A DNA stretch of 37,108 bases, from NCBI GenBank assembly GCA_937858275.1, contig CALLZK010000019.1, positions 1 through 37,108 on the forward strand. Direction: 5' to 3'. A model generated the notes under the pieces. That model was given only the letters and a program-made list of their open reading frames with translations. It made no database searches and was not told where the DNA came from. The stretch's first letter is position 1. The number at the start of each line of letters is the position of its first letter. Of the stretch, positions 3,934-7,755 are shown in pieces. A program made the translations under genes and the position numbers. Source of the DNA: an uncultured bacterium (GTDB lineage: Bacteria > Patescibacteriota > Minisyncoccia > Phycocordibacterales > JAACPR01).

Positions 3934-3961
3934 TAAAAAAGGTTCGAACGAATTCGAACCT
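3934..3961 (-). terminator. Terminator overlapping the stop codon of the C39-like gene
   Basis: A perfect 9-bp stem AGGTTCGAA/TTCGAACCT (3940-3948 and 3953-3961) with a 4-nt loop is followed on the minus strand by six T. The 5' arm includes two bases of the TAG stop (3960-3962) of the upstream gene. Confidence 0.75.
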
Positions 3962-4583
3962 AATCCACAAATATGGCCATTTTTCGCCATTTTTTTAAAA
4001 AATCAGATATTGATATTTTAAAATTAATTTTTTCAACAGAATCTCTAGAGTCTGGATCGTGAAAATACAAAAATCCATCAAGTAAATTATCGGGATTTGT
4101 ATTTTCAAAACCAGTCAAAACAATCAAATGATTGTCTTTATTATTAGAAAAATTTGGTCCAACAGAAACAATAACGGGCTTACCAGAACTGATTGAGGTA
4201 ATAATTTTTTTTATACCGAAAATTTGAATTTCGGGATAATTTTTACCTTCACTAAAAGTGATGCCGTCAATTTTGTCTACAATAACATGAATTGATCTAA
4301 ATTCTTGTGAATAAGAAATAACACCATGATTTCGAAGAATTCTAACCAAACCAAAATGGGACCAACCAGTTTTTTGTTCAAAAGAATTGATTGCTATACC
4401 CTCTTCTATAAGTTCTGATACTGTAAATGTATTCTTTGTAAAAGGTGAAATTAAAAGATTATTCTTGTGACAATAATCTAAAACCATTTTTATACATGCA
4501 ATTCCGCAAGACCTATTTTTCCAATCATCTAAAATATCTGACGAATTTTGTGACACAAAAGGAACTTGTAATAAAACTTTCAT
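3960..4583 (-). CDS. C39-like cysteine peptidase family protein
   Basis: A 207-aa protein of the papain-like peptidase C39 superfamily. The likely catalytic cysteine is Cys26 in RSCGIACIKM, with His152 in DNHLIVLTGF and Asp176 in FHDPDS. No signal peptide or membrane segment is visible, so it appears cytoplasmic. That is unlike the C39 domains of bacteriocin ABC exporters; stand-alone relatives of this kind are mostly uncharacterised. The ATG at 4583 was chosen because AGGAG (4592-4596) lies 8 nt upstream. Two upstream in-frame ATGs (4613, 4622) overlap a possible -10 (TATATA, 4613-4618). It is one of only two genes here with a clear Shine-Dalgarno. It ends in a hairpin terminator before gyrB. 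The substrate is unknown. Confidence 0.72.
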   Translation of the reverse strand: MKVLLQVPFVSQNSSDILDDWKNRSCGIACIKMVLDYCHKNNLLISPFTKNTFTVSELIEEGIAINSFEQKTGWSHFGLVRILRNHGVISYSQEFRSIHVIVDKIDGITFSEGKNYPEIQIFGIKKIITSISSGKPVIVSVGPNFSNNKDNHLIVLTGFENTNPDNLLDGFLYFHDPDSRDSVEKINFKISISDFLKKWRKMAIFVD

Positions 4584-4591
4584 TTTTGATT

Positions 4592-4596
4592 CTCCT
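4592..4596 (-). promoter_or_regulatory. Shine-Dalgarno deciding the C39-like start
   Basis: AGGAG on the minus strand, 8 nt before the ATG at 4583. With a possible -10 at 4613-4618, the leader would be about 20-25 nt. This contrasts with the leaderless layout of most neighbours. Confidence 0.6.
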
Positions 4597-4667
4597 GTAT
4601 TTTCTGTTTTCATATATACCAAATTAGGTTAAAAAAACTTTTAAGAAAAATTAAAATAAAAATAAAT

Positions 4668-7058
4668 TTACCGAACCTCAAAACCTGCTGATTTTATATC
4701 TTTGTATATATTATCCATAATCTCATTTACAAAAACATCATTGAGGGTTTTTTGATCTGACTGAAAAACTAATCTGTAGGCATAAGAAATTTTGTCTTCT
4801 TTTTGATATTGATCGAAAAGTCTCAAATTTACCAAAAATTCTGTTGAATTATTTTTTATAATATCAATTAATTTTTTTTGAGGAATATCTTTTGGTAACC
4901 ACACTGCAATATCTCTAATCACAAAAGGATAAACAGAAAATGGCTTGTAAACAACATCTATTTTTTCTAGTGGAATATATTCAAAATTTGTTAAATTATT
5001 TTGATATAAACTTTCCAAATTTATTTCTGCTATATTTTTGTCTTTATTGTAAATAATTTCCAAATCATTTCCAAAATTTTGTTTTAATTTTGAAATTGCC
5101 AATTCTAAAGTTTCTATTTCTTTTGGTTTTTTTATACCATTTTTGTTTAATACTCCAATGGCCAATCTACTGAATTCCCCCTTTTTAGAAAATATTTTTG
5201 ATATTTCAAAAATTTTAACAATATCAACACCAAGCAAATCGGCATTTTTGATATTTTTTTGAAGTGAATTTTCTAAACTATTCAACAAATTATTTCTCAA
5301 AAATCTTTTGTCTTCAGAAATTGGTTTTTCTGGGGAAATTTCACCATTTTCAACAAAAGAATATGTCATAACTTCATCAAAACCATCTTCGGATAATAAT
5401 TTTCTAATCAAATAATTAATATAATAAATTGAATTTTTCTTTGGAATAAAATTCGGCAATTGTATTTTTTGATCATTTATTTTTTCATATCCATAAACTC
5501 TCGCAATTTCTTCGGCCAATTCTGTTGGGCTTTTTATATCAATTCCAGAAATAGATCCAATATCCAAACGATATTTTGGAACAGTTACAACAAAATAATT
5601 TTCATCAAAAATAACTCTGCAATATTTTGGTGATTTTACAAAATCAACATGTTCAGAAAGTTTTGCAATTTCAACACCATTTTTATTGTGACTACTTGAA
5701 TGAATTATTTTGTCATCTCCAAGATATATACCAACATGATCAATTCCAGTTTTTATTTCAGTTTCTGGCAAAAATTCTTTTGTTTTAAAATGAATTGCAT
5801 TTTTTAGATCTCCAGTATTACAAAAAACCAAATCACCAGGCAACAATTCTTCTTTTGAAATTTCTTGTCCAAAAACAAATTGTTCTATAGACATTCTTGG
5901 AATTTGAATACCAAAATTATAATAAATATATGCAGTAAAAGAAGAGCAGTCAAAATAATTTGGTGAATCTCTACGAACACTAGCACCATATTTGTATGGT
6001 GTTCCAATATGTTTTTGTGCTTCATTAACTATCATATCTCTGGGCTTAACAATTTCATATTTAAAACCCAATAATTCTAATGTTTTTTTTATGTCTTCCA
6101 ACGGAATATTTATGCCCAAAATCTTTTTAAGAAAATTTGGTGAAATTCCGGTTTTATAAAGTGGCCATTTGTAGGGATAAAAATCAATTAAATCAGAAAC
6201 TTCAGTATTTTGGCTTGATGCATATTTTAAAATTAAATGTGTCGCTAATTCCATAGCATCTTGGCAAATTTCTGGTGTAATTTCATTTTCAAACCTTTTT
6301 GATGATTCCGTTGAAATATTTACTCTTTTTGAAGTTTTTCTAACCAAACTTGGCAAAAAATTTGCTGACTCCAAAACTATGTTTGTTGTTTTTGAATCTA
6401 CACCGGCCCTATTTCCACCCTTAACTCCGGCAATTGCCAAAGGACCAAAACCGTCAGCAATAACATGATCTTGTTGTGTTAAAGAAACTTCTTGATTATC
6501 TAATGTTGTAATTTTTTCACCATCTTGAGCTTGGCGAACAAAGATACTTTTACCAACTAATTTGTTTGAATCAAAAGCATGCATTGGTTGGCCAATTTCA
6601 AACATAACTATATTTGTAATATCAACAATATTATTTATAGATTTTTGACCAATTGATTTTAATTTATTTTTTAATTCAACAGGAGATTCTGAAACTTTAA
6701 TATTTTTTATTTCACGAATCAAATATCTTCGACAAAAATCAGCTTTGACATCAACAGAAAAATCACTTTTTTGAGTAATATTTTTTTTGGAAGAAGCATC
6801 TAAATTGTCTGCAAAATAAAAATTATTTTGTTTTAATTTTGTTCCATCAACCACGGTTGCAATTTCAACAGCGACACCGCAATGACAAAGACAATCATGA
6901 GATCTGTTTGGTAAAACATCTATACTAAAAATATAATCATCATCCCTTTTTTCAACCGATTCAACTTCAAATGATTTTGAATTCAAAATTTCCCCCAATT
7001 TTTGTGGTTCTGGTAAATTTTCTAAATATTCTTTTAACCAATTAAATGATATTTGCAT
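4668..7058 (-). CDS. pheT: Phenylalanine--tRNA ligase beta subunit with inserted NlpC/P60 domain
   Basis: A 796-aa beta subunit of PheRS. Domains in order: a short N-terminal B1 piece (1-40) running straight into the B1/B2 core without the OB-fold (EMAP-like) tRNA-binding domain; the B3/B4 editing domain (about 100-265, with GQPMHAFD, LAIAGVKGG and SSKRFENEI); the first half of B5 (about 305-337); an inserted NlpC/P60 domain (about 338-486); the second half of B5 (487-527, with VPKYRLDI and EEIARVYGYEKI); the catalytic-like B6/B7 region; and a C-terminal FDX-ACB anticodon-binding domain (about 708-796). The insert has the complete family pattern: GTPYKYG, YFDCSSF with Cys371, LLPGDLVF, DHVGIYLG with His441, and IIHSS with His453 as a likely third residue. 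The frame is continuous, so this is a real insertion and not two genes. It sits 1 nt after pheS. No signal peptide is present, so the peptidase domain should be cytosolic. Confidence 0.95.
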   Translation of the reverse strand: MQISFNWLKEYLENLPEPQKLGEILNSKSFEVESVEKRDDDYIFSIDVLPNRSHDCLCHCGVAVEIATVVDGTKLKQNNFYFADNLDASSKKNITQKSDFSVDVKADFCRRYLIREIKNIKVSESPVELKNKLKSIGQKSINNIVDITNIVMFEIGQPMHAFDSNKLVGKSIFVRQAQDGEKITTLDNQEVSLTQQDHVIADGFGPLAIAGVKGGNRAGVDSKTTNIVLESANFLPSLVRKTSKRVNISTESSKRFENEITPEICQDAMELATHLILKYASSQNTEVSDLIDFYPYKWPLYKTGISPNFLKKILGINIPLEDIKKTLELLGFKYEIVKPRDMIVNEAQKHIGTPYKYGASVRRDSPNYFDCSSFTAYIYYNFGIQIPRMSIEQFVFGQEISKEELLPGDLVFCNTGDLKNAIHFKTKEFLPETEIKTGIDHVGIYLGDDKIIHSSSHNKNGVEIAKLSEHVDFVKSPKYCRVIFDENYFVVTVPKYRLDIGSISGIDIKSPTELAEEIARVYGYEKINDQKIQLPNFIPKKNSIYYINYLIRKLLSEDGFDEVMTYSFVENGEISPEKPISEDKRFLRNNLLNSLENSLQKNIKNADLLGVDIVKIFEISKIFSKKGEFSRLAIGVLNKNGIKKPKEIETLELAISKLKQNFGNDLEIIYNKDKNIAEINLESLYQNNLTNFEYIPLEKIDVVYKPFSVYPFVIRDIAVWLPKDIPQKKLIDIIKNNSTEFLVNLRLFDQYQKEDKISYAYRLVFQSDQKTLNDVFVNEIMDNIYKDIKSAGFEVR

Positions 7059-7059
7059 A

Positions 7060-7755
7060 CTAAAATTGATTTATTAATCTAAGATCACCATTATAAAAAT
7101 TACGAACATCGTCTATTCCGTACTTGAGCATAACCAAACGATCTATACCGGCCCCAAAAGCAAATCCACTGTATTTTTGAGGATTTATTCCAACATTATT
7201 TAGGACATGTGGATGAACCATTCCGGCACCCAAAACCTCAACCCATTTGCCGTTTTTATTTTTCATATCAATTTCAATTCCTGGTTCAACAAATGGAAAA
7301 TATCCGGGCCTAAATCTTATTTCGGTTTTTTCTCCGTATAATTCTTTTATAAAAGAGTTTAGGGAAAATTTTAGATTTGCCATATTAATACCCTCGCCCA
7401 CAACCAAACCTTCAATTTGATGAAATTGAACTTCATGAGTTTTGTCTGTGGCTTCATATCTATAAACTTTTCCTGGAGCAATTATTTTTAGGGGTGGTCC
7501 ATTTTTTTCCATATACTTAATTTGAACATTTGAAGTGTGGGTTCTTAGAAGTCTTTTTGGATCTGTGGCCAACCAAAATGTATCTTGCATATCTCTTGCG
7601 GGATGATCTTTTGGAACATTTAATGCATCGAAATTGTGATATTCATCTTCTATTTCATTATCTAGTGCAATTTCAAAACCCTTTTGAACAAAAATTTGTA
7701 CAATGTTATCAATCATTCTGTTTATAATATGTATATGTCCGTCTTTTTTTTCCAT
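7060..7755 (-). CDS. pheS: Phenylalanine--tRNA ligase alpha subunit, N-terminally reduced
   Basis: The 231-aa class II catalytic core of PheRS, which forms phenylalanyl-adenylate and transfers it to tRNA-Phe together with PheT. The class II motifs are intact: DEYHNFDALNVPKDHPAR, LLRTHTSNVQ, FHQIEGLVVGEG (motif 2) and GFAFGAGIDRLVMLKYGIDD (motif 3). The protein begins at the point corresponding to GHxHP in Escherichia coli PheS. The roughly 100-residue N-terminal coiled coil that contacts the tRNA is therefore missing (usual length about 330 aa). Only 8 nt separate the ATG from the upstream stop, so no longer start exists. The mitochondrial single-chain enzyme also lacks this coiled coil. It is co-transcribed with pheT. 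Confidence 0.93.
   Translation of the reverse strand: MEKKDGHIHIINRMIDNIVQIFVQKGFEIALDNEIEDEYHNFDALNVPKDHPARDMQDTFWLATDPKRLLRTHTSNVQIKYMEKNGPPLKIIAPGKVYRYEATDKTHEVQFHQIEGLVVGEGINMANLKFSLNSFIKELYGEKTEIRFRPGYFPFVEPGIEIDMKNKNGKWVEVLGAGMVHPHVLNNVGINPQKYSGFAFGAGIDRLVMLKYGIDDVRNFYNGDLRLINQF

Follow-up and report, generated by a model that had tools for sequence, protein, structure and literature searches.

Why should the beta subunit of a phenylalanyl-tRNA synthetase (PheRS) in an uncultured member of the Patescibacteria carry a papain-like hydrolase domain, and what could such an enzyme be doing there? The question is raised by a stretch of 37,108 nucleotides, the whole of which we call the window, whose minus strand holds pheS, pheT, and a gene for a C39-like protein, and then a gyrB-type gene. 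The pheT gene is a single open frame (4668 to 7058, minus strand) that encodes 796 amino acids without a stop or frameshift. Pfam recognizes in it the B3_4 domain (residues 109 to 280, E value of 6.6e-61), an NLPC_P60 domain (residues 352 to 469, 1.1e-19, or 1.3e-21 when the insert alone is searched), CLM, and FDX-ACB, so that the original prediction of a complete NlpC/P60 domain inside one PheT frame was borne out. By the NCBIfam model TIGR00472 (pheT_bact) the protein is a bacterial PheT, scoring 423.6 against a cut-off of 402.65, and a single B3_4 match indicates that it is the only copy in its genome.

Much of the usual PheT layout surrounds the insert. The B3/B4 editing domain (6219 to 6734, minus strand) has both the His equivalent to b261 and the Glu equivalent to b334; editing activity has been located at the B3/B4 interface (PMC3275996). 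The B5 domain, for whose bacterial form DNA binding has been suggested (PMC6035289), is split into an N-terminal half (6051 to 6155, minus strand, from alignments and an AlphaFold2 model of the B5-NlpC region) and a C-terminal half (5481 to 5606, minus strand, Pfam B5 at residues 482 to 524), and the FDX-ACB (B8) anticodon-binding domain lies at 4674 to 4937 on the same strand, as identified by Pfam. Both PheRS subunits in the window are reduced: PheS (7060 to 7755, minus strand, 231 amino acids) is a catalytic core only, its N-terminal coiled coil missing, and PheT has no B2 OB-fold, with residue ~40 aligning to residues ~156 to 160 of staphylococcal PheT.

The inserted domain belongs to family C40 and occupies the tip of the B5 wing (5601 to 6047, minus strand, PheT residues about 336 to 486). 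Its bounds come from a pair of loci within one genus, L064 and L105, in which 488 of 643 PheT core residues are identical and the short turn of the empty site (FQFVWKK-DGDQFVVTVP) is cleanly swapped for the domain in the filled one (FGFEWKK-domain-DNEERFVITVP); the first estimate of residues 338 to 486 was right to within a few residues. The domain scores 70.8 bits against PF00877 (cut-off of 23) and is the sole match to that profile in the window genome (600 kb, 97.8% complete). AlphaFold2 gives the B5 plus NlpC region a mean pLDDT of 93, and the model is closest among solved structures to the Clostridioides difficile autolysin Acd24020 (7cfl, TM score of 0.87 to 0.92 by target length) and MepS. 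The papain-like site foreseen at the B5 turn of this cytosolic synthetase is complete, with Cys371 (codon at 5946 to 5948, minus strand), His441 (5736 to 5738, minus strand), and His453 as the third triad residue (5700 to 5702, minus strand). These residues also recur in homologues, the check that the original prediction called for: an alignment of 50 B5-NlpC sequences, which includes both embedded and stand-alone forms, has no exception at Cys371 and His441 (50/50) or at Gly408 and Asp409, and the third position is His in 45, Glu in 2, and Asp in 2. One divergent version (L092:5064-7319, genome G081) has lost a loop of ~24 residues before the catalytic His and keeps the Cys and both His residues. 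Export to the envelope is not indicated, as the insert lies within PheT and most stand-alone forms, read by eye, start at a B5 half.

Several other identities for the insert were considered and set aside. An intein or other self-splicing element was rejected, as the insert matches only NLPC_P60 and weaker papain-like families and has no Hint fold or splice motifs. A scan for phage origin returned only three unrelated phage NlpC proteins, and a defense system was dismissed on finding no PADLOC profile match for PheT, the C39-like protein, or the stand-alone NlpC proteins.

How widespread is the insert, and how did it come to be there? Profile A1, built from 14 inserts, gave strong matches (E values up to 1.4e-40) in 63 of the 297 genomes of the window's order, 53 of them within PheT frames, one of which is truncated where its contig stops, and 10 in genes of their own. 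Three further PheT frames (G081, G216, and G187) hold divergent versions, which brings the order to about 56 insert-bearing frames. PheT itself, recognized by B3_4, is present in 216 of the 297 genomes, and none was seen in the other 81. The strong form was not found outside the order in a sample of the phylum; eight genomes from other classes have a more distant NlpC homologue at the equivalent B5 position, in longer PheT frames of ~920 to 965 amino acids that include B2. A search of PheT homologues, on which the original prediction hung, recovered the insert well beyond the window. Because of the shared site and the placement of these domains among NlpC relatives in the insert tree, we favor one old insertion over two.

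The PheT of the window's nearest relative, G002, has no insert, as might be expected if the window held an assembly artifact, a chimera, or contamination. We regard that explanation as vanishingly improbable, and independent genomes rule it out: the frames just described, both within the order and in the eight genomes of other classes, carry the insert without stops, and the GC content of the window insert (28.4%) is close to that of the remaining pheT (26.9%). A second idea in the original prediction, that the domain structurally replaces lost tRNA-contacting domains, did not hold up. On the one hand, the insert is present at L144 to L151, where PheT is full-length, B2 included, and stands beside a full-length PheS of ~335 amino acids; on the other, PheT of the 650-amino-acid type, which is just as reduced as that of the window, lacks it.

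Carriers and noncarriers are interleaved in a tree of the PheT core from which the insert was cut out, with 12 changes on the best tree and a minimum of 7 if only supported branches are counted, numbers that on the tree alone cannot separate gain from loss. The window PheT groups with insert-less PheT of its own family, that of G002; among named relatives, the nearest with an insert is Loclat_bin-14315 (L022), a bin from an uncultured organism, and Parcubacteria GW2011_GWA1_40_21 (L023) does not have it. The window DNA thus most likely comes from a Parcubacteria-like member of the Patescibacteria (CPR). Among carriers, distances between inserts track those between cores (Mantel r of 0.80, reached in 0/5000 permutations), which disfavors independent re-insertion of a homing-like kind, and mean identity is higher for the insert (48%) than for the core (44%). 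In our reading, the insert was inherited vertically and was lost, or its gene replaced, many times. Judged from dN/dS in close pairs, saturated silent sites having given no value, the insert is under purifying selection (0.10 to 0.18, compared with 0.09 to 0.20 for the core). These comparisons show that an NlpC/P60 cysteine hydrolase domain entered the B5 wing of PheT in Patescibacteria long ago and has since been passed on together with the PheT core.

Is the inserted enzyme still active? The wing turn evidently tolerates insertion, presence is patchy, and the second His is replaced by Glu in the relatives at L093 and L094, all of which would suit a catalytically dead structural or regulatory passenger in a tolerant loop. 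Such a passenger is quite unlikely given that the Cys and first His show no substitution in the 50 aligned sequences, that dN/dS is low, and that on no fewer than three occasions the domain has survived in a gene of its own. Conservation of the catalytic residues, low dN/dS, and the fold match together strongly suggest catalytic activity.

The stand-alone genes provide a different view of the same domain. The 10 separate B5-NlpC genes are open frames of 209 to 257 amino acids. Eight are in genomes without PheT (no B3_4), and in seven of these eight the gene directly adjoins a one-chain PheRS of mitochondrial type (~380 amino acids), within 4 bp of it or overlapping it on the same strand in five genomes. 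For example, G052 (L043; three contigs, 100% complete) has no PheT; its PheRS is a 382-amino-acid chain of alpha core plus FDX-ACB whose best PDB match is mitochondrial PheRS (1.4e-59), and next to it is a 226-amino-acid protein made up of a B5 half, NlpC, and a B5 half. The gene lies beside the one-chain PheRS on the same strand, with gaps of 3 or -4 bp, in G161 (L083), G245 (L084), G097 (L085), and G196 (L091), and at 37 to 39 bp on the opposite strand in G218 (L086) and G153 (L087). On its supported branches, the insert tree requires three or more changes from one form to the other, embedded or stand-alone, and because the stand-alone proteins keep B5 remnants, we read these changes as escapes from PheT.

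Since the domain persists without the rest of PheT, mostly beside PheRS, we conclude that selection maintains it there, and its retention by several lineages next to a replacement synthetase after PheT was lost makes a real job probable. Retention is nevertheless the minority outcome, the close stand-alone form occurring in eight of the 81 genomes without PheT. Three of the stand-alone genes also count against a tie to PheRS: G101, which lacks B3_4, has no PheRS seen adjoining the gene, and G133 and G172 have a copy away from PheRS in addition to an insert-less PheT. On balance, we think it probable, with good confidence, that B5-NlpC is catalytically active in the cytosol as a cysteine hydrolase, in a role that is linked to PheRS yet independent of the rest of PheT.

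Other NlpC proteins of the phylum were also observed. A separate stand-alone family, 'YRAVGNRCAV...', of ~200 to 240 amino acids, is found at unrelated loci in several families and classes, and its flanks resemble degraded B5 halves (L049, L050, L096, L097, L099, L152, L154, L155, L156, and L158). A distant NlpC protein without B5 flanks overlaps a one-chain PheRS by 4 bp at L100 (G136), a 4-kb contig from a genome that also has an ordinary PheT, so that contamination is possible. Another such protein without B5 flanks, at L098 (G299), is separated by 2 bp from a C39-like gene.

The window has a C39-like gene of its own (3960 to 4622, minus strand), which encodes a papain-fold protein with a Gln-Cys-His pattern, no evident signal peptide, and matches to Peptidase_C39_2 (2.2e-11; 45 bits against a cut-off of 24 for PF13529). 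Its predicted fold is closest to the ComA/PCAT peptidases and phytochelatin synthase. Gln11, Cys25, and His151 of alignment A2 are invariant in 11 C39-like sequences, and the papain-like site is completed by an Asp that is usual in an HDP motif, with Glu or Ser variants nearby. Profile A2 gave 41 strong matches (E values below 1e-37) in the 297 genomes. The gene occurs in 39 of the 63 insert carriers and in 2 of 234 noncarriers (p of about 1e-29, a raw count that ignores kinship) and is absent from 24 carriers. It lies on the contig and strand of pheT-NlpC in 39 of 40 carrier cases (one a contig-end fragment), 36 of them within 2.5 kb downstream. As for the noncarriers, the gene directly follows an insert-less PheT in G140, and in G022 it lies at the very end of the contig. 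In phylogenetically independent pairs the link runs in the same direction in about 4.6 of 6, which is not significant (median p of 0.22).

What, then, might the enzyme cleave? We tentatively prefer a mechanism, still short of an even chance in our judgment, in which PheRS carries a Phe-releasing peptidase. With PheRS as its carrier, the NlpC site, together with the C39-like enzyme where that is present, would cleave small peptides or Phe conjugates that the cell had imported or recycled, and the freed Phe would be supplied at its point of use by PheRS in cells unable to make it. The occurrence of two peptidase-type folds (NlpC and C39) and retention beside either type of PheRS are in keeping with Phe release, and the added domain of Mycoplasma penetrans MetRS supplies that synthetase's own amino acid (PMC7694997). 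Prephenate dehydratase was not found in the window genome. It was found in 1 of 17 carriers and 9 of 42 other genomes, so its lack is only weakly tied to the insert, and Phe auxotrophy as the driver was set aside, the difference being in the same direction and not significant (p = 0.25). Counted against Phe supply, it leaves the patchy presence of the domain and its restriction to PheRS unexplained.

The same retention beside a one-chain PheRS, which has no B3/B4 editing domain, could instead reflect quality control, with the NlpC Cys deacylating mischarged tRNA-Phe (e.g., D-Phe, D-Tyr, or m-Tyr) in cis as part of PheT and in trans where it adjoins the one-chain enzyme. At b334, the Tyr-sensing Glu has given way to Ser in 9 of 41 PheT with the insert and in 1 of 23 without it, which would fit such a role; yet the editing His is kept in 41/41 and the Glu in 32/41 insert-bearing PheT, which leaves ordinary Tyr editing intact in most cases. 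D-aminoacyl-tRNA deacylase (DTD, PF02580) is found in 0 of 59 order genomes, leaving a vacancy, but it is missing with or without the insert, and replacement of DTD by the insert was rejected for want of any contrast. Quality control also leaves the second papain-like gene unexplained, the domain is lacking from most PheT-less genomes, and we know of no papain-like aminoacyl-tRNA deacylase. We consider this role unlikely. Two related observations stand apart from it: the PheT with Ser at b334 (L004, L005, and related sequences) seemingly form one clade, which suggests altered Tyr editing there, and replacement of peptidyl-tRNA hydrolase was rejected on finding Pth in 54 of 59 order genomes, carriers included.

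The sequences and folds closest to the insert are those of D,L-endopeptidases, MepS, and dipeptidyl-peptidase VI, and this resemblance raises a further alternative: a cytosolic hydrolase for cell-wall peptides (muropeptide recycling) or another non-Phe substrate, for which PheT would be a convenient carrier and co-expression partner. The copies of G133 and G172 away from PheRS, the distant 'YRAVGN' relatives at unrelated loci, and the polymorphism of carrier status within one genus are all easily accommodated by an unrelated substrate. It is less easily squared with the seven of eight stand-alone copies that still adjoin PheRS in PheT-less genomes, and we rate it as a lesser possibility, rather unlikely on the whole. 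In other classes, a PG_binding_4 plus YkuD L,D-transpeptidase gene follows pheT with or without the insert (L144, L145, L146, L148, L149, L151, L161, and L163 to L166). A wall link through this gene was rejected, as it is equally present without the insert, following insert-less pheT in five of seven control loci (in the remaining two, that stretch is truncated or unreadable).

A long shot is a tRNA-coupled aminoacyl transfer, in which the NlpC Cys would take Phe from Phe-tRNA or Phe-adenylate in the same complex as a thioester and pass it to an amine acceptor (a peptide, protein, lipid, or wall precursor), with the C39-like enzyme trimming or removing the product. If true, this would be a papain-fold enzyme drawing on a synthetase, and to our knowledge there is no earlier one. 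The Phe-releasing peptidase remains the mechanism that we prefer.

Synthetases with added enzyme domains are already known. In the literature searched, from which most subscription journals fell outside the scope, we found no description of an NlpC-PheRS fusion and, among work on synthetase fusions, nothing on a papain-type hydrolase inside a synthetase; domain databases could already contain this architecture as an uncommented entry. What is unusual here is a papain-type hydrolase within a synthetase, at one spot across a phylum, that repeatedly became a separate gene where PheT was lost. The system amounts to a natural experiment: the domain occurs both in the presence and in the absence of PheT, and a single genus has PheT of both kinds, filled and empty. 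It also ties protein synthesis in uncultured, host-dependent bacteria to a putative cysteine-hydrolase reaction that is testable on purified protein.

Comparison with known systems places these features in context. Bacterial PheT of the alpha2-beta2 PheRS (TIGR00472) has B1, B3/B4, B5, CLM, FDX-ACB, and the editing His and Glu in common with the window protein, whereas in the window's order B2 is missing and an enzyme domain is carried on the B5 wing. The C40 (PF00877) enzymes Acd24020, MepS/Spr, and dipeptidyl-peptidase VI share the fold and the Cys-His-His triad with the insert at an identity of at most about 30% over the domain; unlike them, the insert is embedded in PheT and not exported, and it has loop variants of its own (GASxxxDAPxxFDCSS and an extra conserved segment preceding GVDHxG). 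The C39-like peptidases (ComA/PCAT and Peptidase_C39_2) and phytochelatin synthase have in common with the partner protein a predicted papain fold and the residues Gln, Cys, and His, but the window gene, in contrast to ComA/PCAT, adjoins pheT-NlpC without an ABC transporter and with no export signal seen. The mitochondrial one-chain PheRS (FARS2 type) has the same layout of alpha core and FDX-ACB as the synthetases beside which NlpC became a separate gene, although the order's version is bacterial and paired with a B5-NlpC gene; replacement of the two-subunit enzyme by a one-chain PheRS in this order may bear on the origin of mitochondrial PheRS. Finally, the MetRS of Mycoplasma penetrans, with its aminotransferase domain, is likewise a tRNA synthetase with a second enzyme domain in a genome-reduced bacterium (PMC7694997). 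However, that domain is unrelated, was added at the N terminus, and was reported as unique to one species (PMC7694997), whereas PheT-NlpC is an internal insertion that is phylum-wide and has stand-alone descendants.
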